Under the pieces are notes generated by a model, which saw nothing but the letters and a program-made list of their open reading frames with translations, was not told the origin of the DNA and made no database searches. From Phenylobacterium sp. (GTDB lineage Bacteria > Pseudomonadota > Alphaproteobacteria > Caulobacterales > Caulobacteraceae): a stretch of DNA of 64,000 bases. A program made the position numbers and the translations under genes. The stretch is taken from contig NZ_JAUSBZ010000048.1 in the NCBI RefSeq assembly GCF_030651755.1, positions 62,001-126,000 of the forward strand. The letters run 5' to 3'. Numbering within the stretch: position 1 is the first letter of the stretch; every line of letters starts with the position of its first letter. Below, in pieces: positions 10,151 through 35,077 of this stretch.

Positions 10151-10603
10151 TCAACGCCAACGCTCGCTGCGGGCCGTGATGAAGGTCGATACGACATACC
10201 GCCAGGGAATGACGGCAAGGAAGATCACCACCAGAAGGCAGGCCCACAGGTTTGACCAGACGCCGGGGTCCATCTGGTTGTTGATCAGCCGTGGCGCCGC
10301 GACAAACCCCAGCCAGAGCCCCTTCCACGCGACCTCGAAAAGCAGCAGGGGCAACATGCTGAGTGGGTGGCGTAGTCCAAGCAGCGCCAACAAGCCCACA
10401 GCGCCCAACATGCACTGGACGACCCCCTCCATCAGCGCCCAGTCGCCATGGCTCAGGACAATATCGGGCCACACCTGCACGCCCAAGCCGACGACCAGCA
10501 AGAGATAACCTGCGCGCAATCCGTGCAGACGCCAGACGGGCAGGAATTCGCCCGTACGGGGCCTGTGACCCCGTTGGCCGAGGGGGAGCGCGTCGGCCGC
10601 CAC
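10151..10603 (-). CDS. Small multi-pass membrane protein in repressor operon
   Basis: 150 aa from a GTG start at 10603 that shares its G with the TAG stop of the upstream gene (TAGTG), so the two are translationally coupled. Four hydrophobic stretches are visible (about residues 30-45, 63-78, 82-100 and 118-135; for example LLLVVGLGVQVW and LLVVIFLAVIPW). No enzyme motif is visible and I do not recognise the family. It is the last gene of an operon headed by a winged-helix repressor and a 71-aa membrane-anchored protein, which suggests a dedicated regulated membrane function. Confidence 0.7.
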   Translation of the reverse strand: MAADALPLGQRGHRPRTGEFLPVWRLHGLRAGYLLLVVGLGVQVWPDIVLSHGDWALMEGVVQCMLGAVGLLALLGLRHPLSMLPLLLFEVAWKGLWLGFVAAPRLINNQMDPGVWSNLWACLLVVIFLAVIPWRYVVSTFITARSERWR

Positions 10604-10818
10604 TATCCGACATCCTTTAGGACTCTCTCGATGCCGTCGAGGCGGCCCCGAATGCTGGCGAGTTCCGCATGCGTCTTTTCCGCCAGATCTGTGTAGGCCT
10701 GGTCATGAATCATCTGCGCCGCCGCCTGGCGGGTTGCGGCCAAATATCTCAATGCAAAAACTGCAATGATCGTCCCAAGCGGCAGGCCAATAGTCAAAAG
10801 GTACATATGATCGGACAA
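10603..10818 (-). CDS. 71-aa membrane-anchored coiled-coil protein
   Basis: One N-terminal transmembrane segment (about residues 6-25, YLLTIGLPLGTIIAVFALRY) is followed by a charged helical tail with heptad-like spacing (LAEKTHAELASIRGRLDGIERVL). The architecture is a small inner-membrane anchor with a cytoplasmic coiled coil. It lies 14 bp after the winged-helix regulator and overlaps the next membrane protein by one base. The function is unknown. The coiled coil could contact the partner membrane protein, which is inference. Confidence 0.72.
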   Translation of the reverse strand: MSDHMYLLTIGLPLGTIIAVFALRYLAATRQAAAQMIHDQAYTDLAEKTHAELASIRGRLDGIERVLKDVG

Positions 10819-10832
10819 TTTCTTCTCCTGTT

Positions 10833-11141
10833 TTATGGCATGCGAGTAAGAGACGTCGCGACGTCTGCTATGTAGGAAGGCGTGAGATTTATTCTAAAGT
10901 CGCTTATCTGAAAGTAGTTTAGCGCCTTACCGTCTTTAGAAATTTCGAGCTGACTTTTAACCAGCCCGGCCTCCTCTAATTTATTCAGGTGAAGGTGGAG
11001 CAGCGGACGGCTAATGCCGAGTTCCCGCGCCAGCCGGCTCACATAGTTCCGACCGCCGGCCTCCAGGGCCGCGATGATCCGCAAGCGATGGGGATTGTCG
11101 AGGGCGGAGAGAACCGCAAGCAACTTGTCACCGGCCGTCAT
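10833..11141 (-). CDS. ArsR-like winged-helix transcriptional regulator
   Basis: 102 aa using ATG 11141 with GGTGGCGGA upstream (MTAGDKLLAVLSALDNPHRL). In-frame codons up to 11207 lie over the operator dyad and lack a ribosome site. The HTH is in YVSRLARELGISRPLLHLHLNKLEEAGLV and the wing follows (LEISKDGKALNYFQI). No metal-binding Cys motif of classical ArsR is present. The C-terminal part (residues 80-102) is short. It heads a three-gene operon with two membrane proteins and very likely represses it through the dyad immediately upstream. Confidence 0.85.
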   Translation of the reverse strand: MTAGDKLLAVLSALDNPHRLRIIAALEAGGRNYVSRLARELGISRPLLHLHLNKLEEAGLVKSQLEISKDGKALNYFQISDFRINLTPSYIADVATSLTRMP

Positions 11142-11151
11142 TCCGCCACCG

Positions 11152-11187
11152 CCTTTCATGTGTAAGAATTTACTTACATATGAAAGG
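11152..11187. promoter_or_regulatory. 36-bp near-perfect dyad, probable autoregulatory operator
   Basis: CCTTTCATGTGTAAG (11152-11166) and CTTACATATGAAAGG (11173-11187) are inverted copies matching at 14 of 15 positions around a 6-bp AATTTA spacer. The dyad ends 10 bp upstream of the regulator start at 11141. Its AT-rich content contrasts with the surrounding sequence. The core TTACATATGAAA-type half-site is what dimeric winged-helix repressors commonly bind, and the position suits promoter occlusion. The symmetry is seen; the binding protein is inferred to be the adjacent regulator. Confidence 0.7.
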
Positions 11188-11220
11188 TTGTCAACAGTCG
11201 TGCTCAAGAGGCGGTCCAGG

Positions 11221-11654
11221 GTGATGTGGCCATTGGATTACGGAGGCGGATTCGGCCCATGAGGCTCGCGCCCGGGGCCCTGTTGGCCGCCCGTATGCGC
11301 TTCGAAGAAGCCTCCCCACCTTGCCCGTCGGGGGGGTGCTTGCGCGCGTCATAATAGATTCAGACCTCGGCCAGCTCGCCAGGCTGCTGGCCTGCCACCA
11401 CACCCACCTGTTCGGTAAGAATCAGTCCACCTGGTCAAGGCGGGCTACCTCCGGGTCCGCACCTCCCGCGGACGCGGCAAGGCTAGAGTCTACGCCCCTG
11501 CGCCTGATGAGAGGCGCAAAGTCTCGACCTGGACGCCTTGGGTAAAGAGGCCCAGGCCATCCTGGCCGGTGACGAGGGCGAGCTCGCCGCAACGCTCCCG
11601 ACCCTGGGCGGGGGCTCGGGCGGGGCACAAAAGAGGGCGCGGAATCGCACTTAG
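11221..11654 (+). pseudogene. Decayed winged-helix transcriptional regulator
   Basis: No frame stays open, but fragments in successive frames read like one MarR/ArsR-type winged-helix protein: an N-terminal piece PLDYGGGFGP near 11230, a middle piece DSDLGQLARLLA near 11360, then VKAGYLRVRTSRGRGKARVY from about 11433, then LDALGKEAQAILAG from about 11531, ending at a stop at 11652. At least two frameshifts and an in-frame TAA at 11415 interrupt it. The recognition-helix region is degraded. It is distinct from the intact regulator at 10833-11141. It fills most of the 487-bp stretch between that gene and tRNA-Arg. Confidence 0.45.
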
Positions 11655-11694: not shown

Positions 11695-11771
11695 TGGCGC
11701 GCCCGGAACGATTCGAACGTCCGACCCTCAGATTCGTAGTCTGATGCTCTATCCAGCTGAGCTACGGGCGC
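11695..11771 (-). tRNA. tRNA-Arg (anticodon ACG)
   Basis: The minus strand folds as a complete cloverleaf: 7-bp acceptor GCGCCCG/CGGGCGC, D arm GCTC...GAGC, anticodon stem TCAGA/TCTGA with loop CTACGAA (ACG), T arm with TTCGAAT loop, discriminator G and an encoded CCA (complement at 11695-11697). ACG is read with inosine as the main CGN-decoding arginine tRNA. A weak AAAAGC/GCTTTT hairpin (11670-11684) follows the 3' end and may help termination. Confidence 0.96.
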
Positions 11772-34138: not shown

Positions 34139-35077
34139 CTAGACGGCCCGGCCGGTGAGCCGCCAGAGCAGGGGGCGGATGACCGCCGCGCCGACCACCA
34201 GGGGCCAAAGGAGCCAGGCCGCAGCCGCCTCCCCAGCCCCGCGGGCGCGTTTGCGAAAATAGCGGGCGAGACCCAGGCCCTTATAGAGCTCCACCTGCAG
34301 GGGACTGGCGCGGCTGGTGTGGCCCAGATGGATCACCTCGGCCTTGGGATGGAACATCACCTCGCCGCCGGCCTCGCGCACTCGCCAGCAGAGATCGATG
34401 TCCTCCACATGCAGGAAGTAGCCTTCGTCGAACCCGCCAAGACGGGCGTAGTCGGTCCTGCGCATGGCGAAGAAGGCGCCGGAAATGGTCGGAACCGGGC
34501 ACAGAGCGGCCGGCGCCGTCTCATTCTCCCAATGCACCTCGAAACGTCGCAGGGCGGGCGCCCGCCGGGTCAGGCCGCTGAGGGACAGAAGGGCGGCCAC
34601 CGGGGTGATCTCGCCGCGCCGGGCGCCGCGCTGCTCGCTGCCATCGGCGTTCAGCACGCGGCCCCCCACCAGACGCATGGTCTCGGCGCCCATCACCGCC
34701 CTGGCCAGGCCATGGGCGCCGCCGGGCTGCAGGAAGGCGTCGGGATTGAGGAAGATGAGCACCTCGCCGGTGGCGGCCCTGGCGCCCAGATTGGCCCCGC
34801 GGGCGAAGCCCACATTGCCCTGCCCGCGCACCAGCCGCATCTGTGCGTGGCGCTCAGCGAAGGCGTCCAGAACGGCCGACTCGCTGGGATCAGAGCCGTT
34901 GTCGACGACGATGAATTCGTCCACCTGCGGATCGTCGAGCACACAGGCGAGGCTCTGGTCCAGAGCCTCGCCTGTCATGTACACGACCATGATCACCGAG
35001 ATGCGAGCATCCTCGGCGATTCCATGCGGCGTCGGGGCGGTCTCGACCGCCACAAACGATGCGCCGATATCGTTCAT
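34139..35077 (-). CDS. Family 2 glycosyltransferase (rhamnosyltransferase-like)
   Basis: 312 aa. The GT2 core has [62 protein letters not shown] and a DxD-like ENETAP...[21 protein letters not shown] block. A C-terminal hydrophobic patch ([21 protein letters not shown]) may attach it to the membrane. It probably adds a deoxysugar to a surface polysaccharide. The start overlaps the thrS stop by 4 bp, making it the third gene of yidD-thrS-GT2. Confidence 0.88.

Follow-up and report, generated by a model that had tools for sequence, protein, structure and literature searches.

A putative autorepressed membrane-protein switch with an inseparable ArsR-type regulator and single-pass partner in Phenylobacterium and distantly related bacteria

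The window, i.e., the whole stretch of 64,000 nucleotides of a Phenylobacterium sp. contig that was analyzed, carries the gene of an ArsR-type regulator (R), the gene of a small single-pass membrane protein (S) and the gene of a polytopic membrane protein (M) behind a conserved operator dyad. The comparison of genomes strongly supports that R is tied to this operator, that R and S are inseparable, and that M and DUF4386 proteins are alternative or joint outputs. On the basis of the sequences, the module is read as a laterally moving, autorepressed membrane-protein switch in which S would relay a membrane signal to the sensor-less R, and to this reading we assign a probability of about one half.

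Organization of the Module and Its Operator

The features of the module are listed in Table 1. A preliminary description of this DNA had reported a 36-bp dyad at 11152-11187 with 14 of 15 positions matched, and the repeat was found as described, with its arms at 11152-11166 and 11173-11187. Both membrane-protein genes named there, for a 71-aa anchored coiled-coil protein and a four-helix membrane protein, are present as well, and base 10603 is indeed common to the TAG of S and the GTG of M. The one-base overlap, from which a tight translational coupling of S and M had been proposed, is shared by some relatives of the module, but elsewhere the two genes are tens of bases apart.

Table 1. Positions of the module genes and of the predicted regulatory elements in the window.
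Feature	Position	Strand	Description
M	10151-10603	-	150 aa, GTG start; four membrane-length helices in the model; undescribed family
S	10603-10818	-	71 aa, TTG start; one hydrophobic segment and a C-terminal coiled-coil-like helix
R	10833-11159	-	ArsR-type winged-helix regulator, 108 aa from the likely start codon inside the operator
Operator dyad	11152-11187	no strand	15-nt arms, 14/15 matched, 6-nt gap; conserved 26-bp core CATATGTAAGTAAATTCTTACACATG
-10-like hexamer TAAATT	11167-11172	-	dyad centre; N6 spacer of the conserved core TGTNAG-N6-CTNACA
-35-like hexamer TTGACA	11189-11194	-	TTGA(C/T) at a near-constant distance in relatives

The window was searched for inverted repeats with arms of 15 nt, at least 14 matched positions and a gap of at most 12 nt. 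Apart from the module dyad, this resulted in a single further, near-perfect repeat at 34942-34976, around GGCGAGGCTCTGGTCCAGAGCCTCGCC, and five simulated Markov-1 sequences of 64 kb yielded 1, 0, 0, 0, and 0 such repeats. The module dyad had been placed just upstream of the repressor gene. It covers more than that region, as it spans the predicted -10 element, the transcription start and the start codon, a position that fits repression.

The module is adjoined by a tRNA-Arg(acg) gene at 11695-11771, the only tRNA gene of the window. No convincing gene was found between this tRNA and the operator, and the stretch 11230-11650, which by eye had been considered a broken winged-helix regulator, received no support from Pfam.

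Start Codon of R and Predicted Leaderless Transcription

The translation of R probably starts at ATG 11159 rather than at 11141. ATG 11159 is located in the right dyad arm and shares the reading frame of R. The TTGACA hexamer starts 35 nt ahead of this ATG at 11194, and TAAATT ends 7 nt ahead of it at 11167. In some relatives (e.g., L007), the operator ATG is the sole ATG, GTG or TTG ahead of the conserved part of R. Of the winged-helix repressor previously assigned to 10833-11141, the fold and the stop at 10833 could be retained, but the in-frame ATG and the promoter spacing make the upstream start the likelier one.

Operator and start codon were measured at 42 R loci, comprising 30 of the 40 R-containing genomes of the family of the window, 11 named genomes, and L194. 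Forty of the 42 (39 by script, L009 by eye) have a spacing of 34-35 nt between the beginning of TTGA(C/T) and the operator start codon, and the remaining two have 37 and 40 nt. In 32 loci (31 by script, L009 by eye) this codon is in frame with R, in the other 10 it is out of frame. Seven of the latter (L062, L063, L065, L066, L068, L069, L090) contain a reading frame of 6-7 codons from the operator ATG, the TGA of which overlaps the R start, and which possibly encodes a leaderless leader peptide coupled to R; three are otherwise out of frame.

From the near-fixed 35-nt spacing between promoter and start codon, the R-S-M mRNA is predicted to be leaderless. This is plausible for the family of the window, as 375 leaderless mRNAs are reported for Caulobacter crescentus (PMC4117421).

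R Is an ArsR-Type Regulator Without Cysteines

The roughly 108 aa of R comprise a DNA-binding domain and leave no space for an additional sensor domain. R matches the Pfam families HTH_20 (E 2.3e-12, 47.1 bits, gathering cut-off 27) and HTH_5/ArsR (E 5.6e-11, 42.6 bits, gathering cut-off 22), and the best NCBIfam match is the metalloregulator subfamily model NF033788, below its cut-off (46.4 vs. 55 bits). With these matches, its shortness and its operator dyad, R resembles the ArsR/SmtB regulators, and the module could be taken for an ordinary metal-sensing efflux operon of that type. This we consider very improbable. As already stated in the preliminary description, metal-binding Cys motifs are lacking: none of the 14 members of the R alignment contains a single Cys, and the His residues kept in all 14 (window residues 24, 55, and 57) are located inside the winged-helix domain. 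Among the neighboring genes displayed, no metal transporter was recognized by eye. The obligate membrane partner and the start codon within the operator also set R apart from ArsR/SmtB.

R and S Are Inseparable, M Is Exchangeable

A scan with M over genome contigs resulted in 27 loci, in 13 of which R adjoins M. These belong to seven Xanthomonas, one Brevundimonas, two Caulobacter, two Oxalobacteraceae (a Rugamonas MAG and Pseudoduganella flava) and Paenibacillus phyllosphaerae, and S is located between R and M in all 13 (11 by tblastn, two by reading).

In 299 genomes of the window's family, searched with limits of E 1e-20 or better for R and 1e-4 or better for S, R was detected in 40 genomes, always with E 3.1e-43 or better and with no match from there to 1e-20. 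S was detected in the same 40 genomes, once per genome and adjoining R by coordinates in every case, and neither gene occurs in the other 259. M is present in 26 genomes, so that 21 genomes contain both R and M, 19 only R, 5 only M and 254 neither. Fisher's test resulted in 1e-50 for R and S and 7e-17 for R and M, both uncorrected for relatedness. M follows R-S in all 21 genomes with both R and M. R loci were fetched for 30 of the 40 genomes, and each of them has S after R, whereas 19 have M as well; the gap between R and S, measured with the first start codon accepted by the script, is -4 to +13 nt in all 29 loci besides the window. A short M remnant is found after S in G407, and short ORFs weakly like the start of M in G464 and G533; M thus seems to have been lost repeatedly, in G407 and maybe in the other two, with R-S being kept. 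Since R and S occur in identical genomes and M is variable, R-S is regarded as an obligate unit and M as an exchangeable output. The homologs are syntenic wherever they occur together and not scattered, and the module as previously proposed is therefore not refuted, but as a three-gene unit it has to be relaxed, with M absent from 19 of the 40 R-containing genomes and present without R in five.

In 10 of the 14 M loci without R, genes for a GntR-type regulator and an ABC ATPase are located upstream of M on the same strand, as assigned by Pfam for L013 and by like sequence for the other nine; L013 and L018 contain one further gene in between. A DUF4386-type gene follows M in L013 (Pfam E 1.9e-53) and, by like sequence, in L015, L016, L018, and L025, and two of the 14 loci (L027, L028) contain a partial M only. 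In Paenibacillaceae other than P. phyllosphaerae, the GntR-ABC gene set precedes M in place of R-S. The GntR domain of L013 scores 62.9 bits, and its best NCBIfam models, PdxR and PmtR, are both far below cut-off; the Paenibacillus GntR protein upstream of M may be YtrA-like, with no NCBIfam model matched above cut-off. Relatives of M elsewhere adjoin AraC, TetR or GntR regulators, and M therefore requires neither R nor S. Among these relatives, L056, L057, and L060 lack R-S and adjoin a gene that by eye resembles an AraC-type regulator, and a DUF2306-like membrane protein is encoded next to M, with a score, determined for L056, just below the cut-off of the family.

The linkage of R and M could also be explained by an SdpI-like function of M as the receptor, which would sense a toxin or stress, sequester R and confer immunity, with S as an accessory protein. 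The combination of a polytopic protein with an ArsR-like autorepressor is also that of SdpRI (PMC1626106). R-S loci without M in 19 of 40 genomes, an M remnant in G407 and perhaps in G464 and G533, and the location of M beside GntR or AraC regulators elsewhere speak against it, as does the score of R with the NCBIfam SdpR model NF033789 (23.2 bits, cut-off 100), and M as the receptor is judged unlikely.

Lateral Distribution

In the R tree, the R of the window clusters with those of Xanthomonas, Brevundimonas and some Caulobacter (16 rows, support 99/95), and five of the six other R proteins of its genus in the tree are found in the other group. Its highest identity, 76%, is to a Xanthomonas R. 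The Paenibacillus R is nested within the proteobacterial R proteins with weak support. In samples of the phylum, 3 of 398 genomes contained R, two of these being the genome of the window and a genome of its genus, and 5 of 299 contained M, again with the genome of the window included. The patchy distribution speaks for lateral transfer, and the module appears to move laterally between distantly related bacteria.

The R of the third match of the phylum samples (L191 in G208) is divergent, and genes for an S-like protein and for DUF3817 and UPF0093 membrane proteins come after it in a row; an operator of this type was not seen by eye before this R. L194, which belongs to a different family of the same class, carries the full module of operator, R, S and M and was one of 2 matches in 270 genomes. 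The two loci indicate that the plan of a winged helix, an anchored coiled coil and an exchangeable small membrane protein extends beyond the close family.

The Operator as a Marker of Additional Target Genes

The operator was found at R in all 42 loci measured (L009 by eye), which together with the synteny supports the earlier view of a self-regulated module with its own, putative operator. The 26-base operator pattern was run on the 40 R-containing genomes and on four of the five M-bearing genomes without R, allowing up to three mismatches in nine of the R-containing genomes and up to two in the other 31 and in the four without R. A site was detected in 38 of 40 R-containing genomes vs. none of the four others. 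In 36 of the 38 genomes the site directly adjoins R. Of the other two, G321 has R truncated by a contig edge and the site at the edge of a different contig, and G421 has an ORF between the operator and R. This ORF (L114, 1076-1525) has a signal-peptide-like start and about 110 aa from an inner ATG, so that this operon may begin with the gene of a secreted protein. The two genomes missed by the pattern are G397, the contig of which begins about at R, and G402 with a degenerate site. In the window's own genome, the module operator is the only site without mismatches, and nine named genomes (seven Xanthomonas, P. phyllosphaerae and P. flava) have a site with 0 or 1 mismatches at R only.

As a control, the backward pattern was used, which matched six places in the nine genomes searched with up to three mismatches, four in the named genomes and none in the set with up to two mismatches. 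Weak operator-like sites, i.e., nine places with three mismatches and seven with two mismatches in the named genomes, are accordingly near chance level. One more site with two mismatches is located in G485, in the set without control matches. A two-mismatch site in G362 is located between TetR-type and oxidoreductase genes by eye and consists of a different palindrome; it was dropped. An identical operator-like sequence with three mismatches, AATAAGTAAGTATGTCCTGACTTATG, is shared by L101 and L102 (G492 and G498, Caulobacter-group) and is perhaps another target.

G395 (0 mismatches), G563 (0), and G503 (2) each contain a further site, which immediately precedes a DUF4386 gene or coincides with its start. 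In these three genomes R-S is present and M absent, and the operator copies at the DUF4386 genes are distant from the R-S locus. In addition, R-S-M in G583 and G552 is directly followed by a DUF4386 gene on the same strand, and so is R-S in G577. The assignment to PF14329 (cut-off 27.6) is based on 132-164 bits for L084, L098, L124, and L125 and 182 bits for L013, and the downstream proteins of G583 and G552 are above cut-off as well. An operator matrix was built from 30 operators, which include the R operators of G577, G583, and G552, but none of the three distant sites. When it was applied to the loci of 28 DUF4386 matches from 60 genomes, six had a site in the fetched locus with 35-46 bits, whereas the other 22 remained at 8 bits or less. 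The six are the three distant sites and the loci of G577, G583, and G552, where the site is the R operator. Of the 20 genomes without R in this set, three (G331, G385, and G436) have DUF4386 genes, and no site was detected at these by the matrix. In 15 of the 19 genomes with R but without M, no other operator-controlled gene was found, the two-mismatch site of G485 and the three-mismatch sites being left out, so that many genomes retain R-S with no apparent output.

These sites bear on two further explanations. ArsR-type proteins often bind small ligands directly, and R might accordingly be a ligand-binding autorepressor, e.g., for a lipid or hydrophobic compound, with S and M as mere effectors and S kept by the mRNA shared with R; that both follow R in 21 of the 40 R-containing genomes is in line with this. 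On the other hand, 19 of the 40 keep S without M, and the DUF4386 sites are located away from the R-S locus while S occurs only once per genome, beside R, as one would expect of a partner of R rather than of an output protein. A ligand-binding R is thus considered possible, but doubtful.

The second is a toxin-antitoxin-like pair of R as antitoxin and S as small membrane toxin, with M and the DUF4386 proteins as passengers. The obligate adjacency of R and S, the dyad at the regulator gene and the patchy, lateral distribution would agree with such a pair, but DUF4386 genes that are not linked to R-S have the operator as well. Neither a toxin family nor an antitoxin family scored above cut-off (Epsilon_antitox 16.8 vs. 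25 bits), and M, the only protein searched there, was not found in a plasmid collection by tblastn. PADLOC matched R only to proteins bearing a helix-turn-helix (e.g., Csa3) and S and M to none, and the toxin-antitoxin reading is regarded as quite improbable. The PADLOC result also led to the rejection of a defense system as the identity of the module, and a search of phage families gave two weak matches to R and none to S or M.

Properties of S and M

The preliminary description had assigned S and M to no known family, which was borne out by the database searches. In Pfam, no family was matched above cut-off by S (14 S members) or by M (25 M members), and the window proteins S and M had no NCBIfam match at E up to 1. 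The profile of S against the PDB reached at best E 0.29, that of M E 0.079.

The first five residues of S are free of Lys and Arg in 29 of 30 members, and residues 23-42 contain 2-4 of them in all 30. This distribution indicates an N-out/C-in topology. The best-conserved residues are located in the C-terminal helix as well as in the transmembrane segment. PspB, which has a signaling role, shares with S the architecture of one N-terminal transmembrane helix followed by a coiled coil. Homology of the two found no support in these comparisons: HMMER matches were below threshold and restricted to 3 of 14 members and the L191 cousin (at best 16.5-17.1 bits with PF06667, cut-off 25.6), and the hhalign comparison of the S profile with E. 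coli PspB was not supportive (probability 7.7%, 20 columns).

For M, a first structure model from 25 sequences had a pLDDT of 66 and no fold match, and a second one from 42 sequences reached 86.6. With the second model, Foldseek returned no match at E 0.001 or better. The best VIA-align Z for M was 7.4, a value that is ordinary for helical models according to the tool's own note.

Proposed Mechanism and Comparison With Known Systems

SdpR of Bacillus subtilis is ArsR-like. Its operon combines a small autorepressor and a membrane protein by which the repressor is sequestered at the membrane (PMC1626106), and in this layout it is similar to the module. The proteins differ, as R fails the SdpR model and S and M have no SdpI family match. 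Moreover, the obligate partner is here a separate protein with a single transmembrane segment, and the polytopic protein is optional and exchangeable. The best reading is an autorepressed membrane-stress switch that would resemble SdpR/SdpI in logic, not by homology.

A second similarity exists to ytrGABCDEF of B. subtilis, which is induced by lipid II-cycle inhibitors and combines a repressor (the GntR-type YtrA), a small transmembrane protein (YtrG) and membrane machinery in the form of an ABC transporter (PMC12772383). The M loci with GntR-type and ABC ATPase genes described above, Pfam-assigned on L013 only, are a further likeness. The regulator of the module, however, belongs to another family, and the module of the window includes no ABC transporter.

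Judging from the position and the conservation of the operator, R would occupy the dyad, cover the -10 element, transcription start and start codon, and keep the expression of the operon low. S would be an inner-membrane protein, the C-terminal coiled coil of which faces the cytoplasm. S or an associated membrane protein may sense a disturbance of the membrane, whereupon S would remove R from the operator, probably by retaining R at the membrane in the way SdpI retains SdpR. The release of R would result in more of the predicted leaderless R-S-M mRNA, and the outputs would build up, i.e., M in the window and DUF4386 proteins or both in relatives. In the least certain step, these proteins might serve within the bilayer for protection or for the handling of lipids. 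We infer from this scheme an inducible membrane response, as suggested before, with S as the relay of the membrane signal.

Several observations speak against the reading as a switch with S as relay. The co-occurrence of R and S could instead reflect a joint role as effectors, M of relatives adjoins other regulators, and no family or fold match tells the function of M. In addition, R-S often lacks an apparent output, 10 of the 42 loci have an operator start codon that is not in frame with R, an ORF intervenes in G421, and L191 has no operator by eye.

A further-reaching interpretation, which we put forward tentatively, is that R-S may be an undescribed membrane-to-DNA signaling pair with the single-pass coiled-coil S as sole input. 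It would be carried between phyla with exchangeable small membrane outputs, i.e., M, DUF4386 proteins and, in the distant cousin, the DUF3817 and UPF0093 proteins, which together would form an unrecognized system for inner-membrane protection or lipid handling.

Significance

In a literature search, no description of this module was found, S and M having no name to search by, and the name DUF4386 occurred in none of the papers searched. As a single conserved operator is involved, the signal should be findable by a simple reporter screen. If the reading as a switch is true, it would provide the first context and a ready reporter promoter for M and DUF4386, two membrane families of undescribed function, and the module would be a minimal model of how the membrane can control a repressor without a sensor domain.
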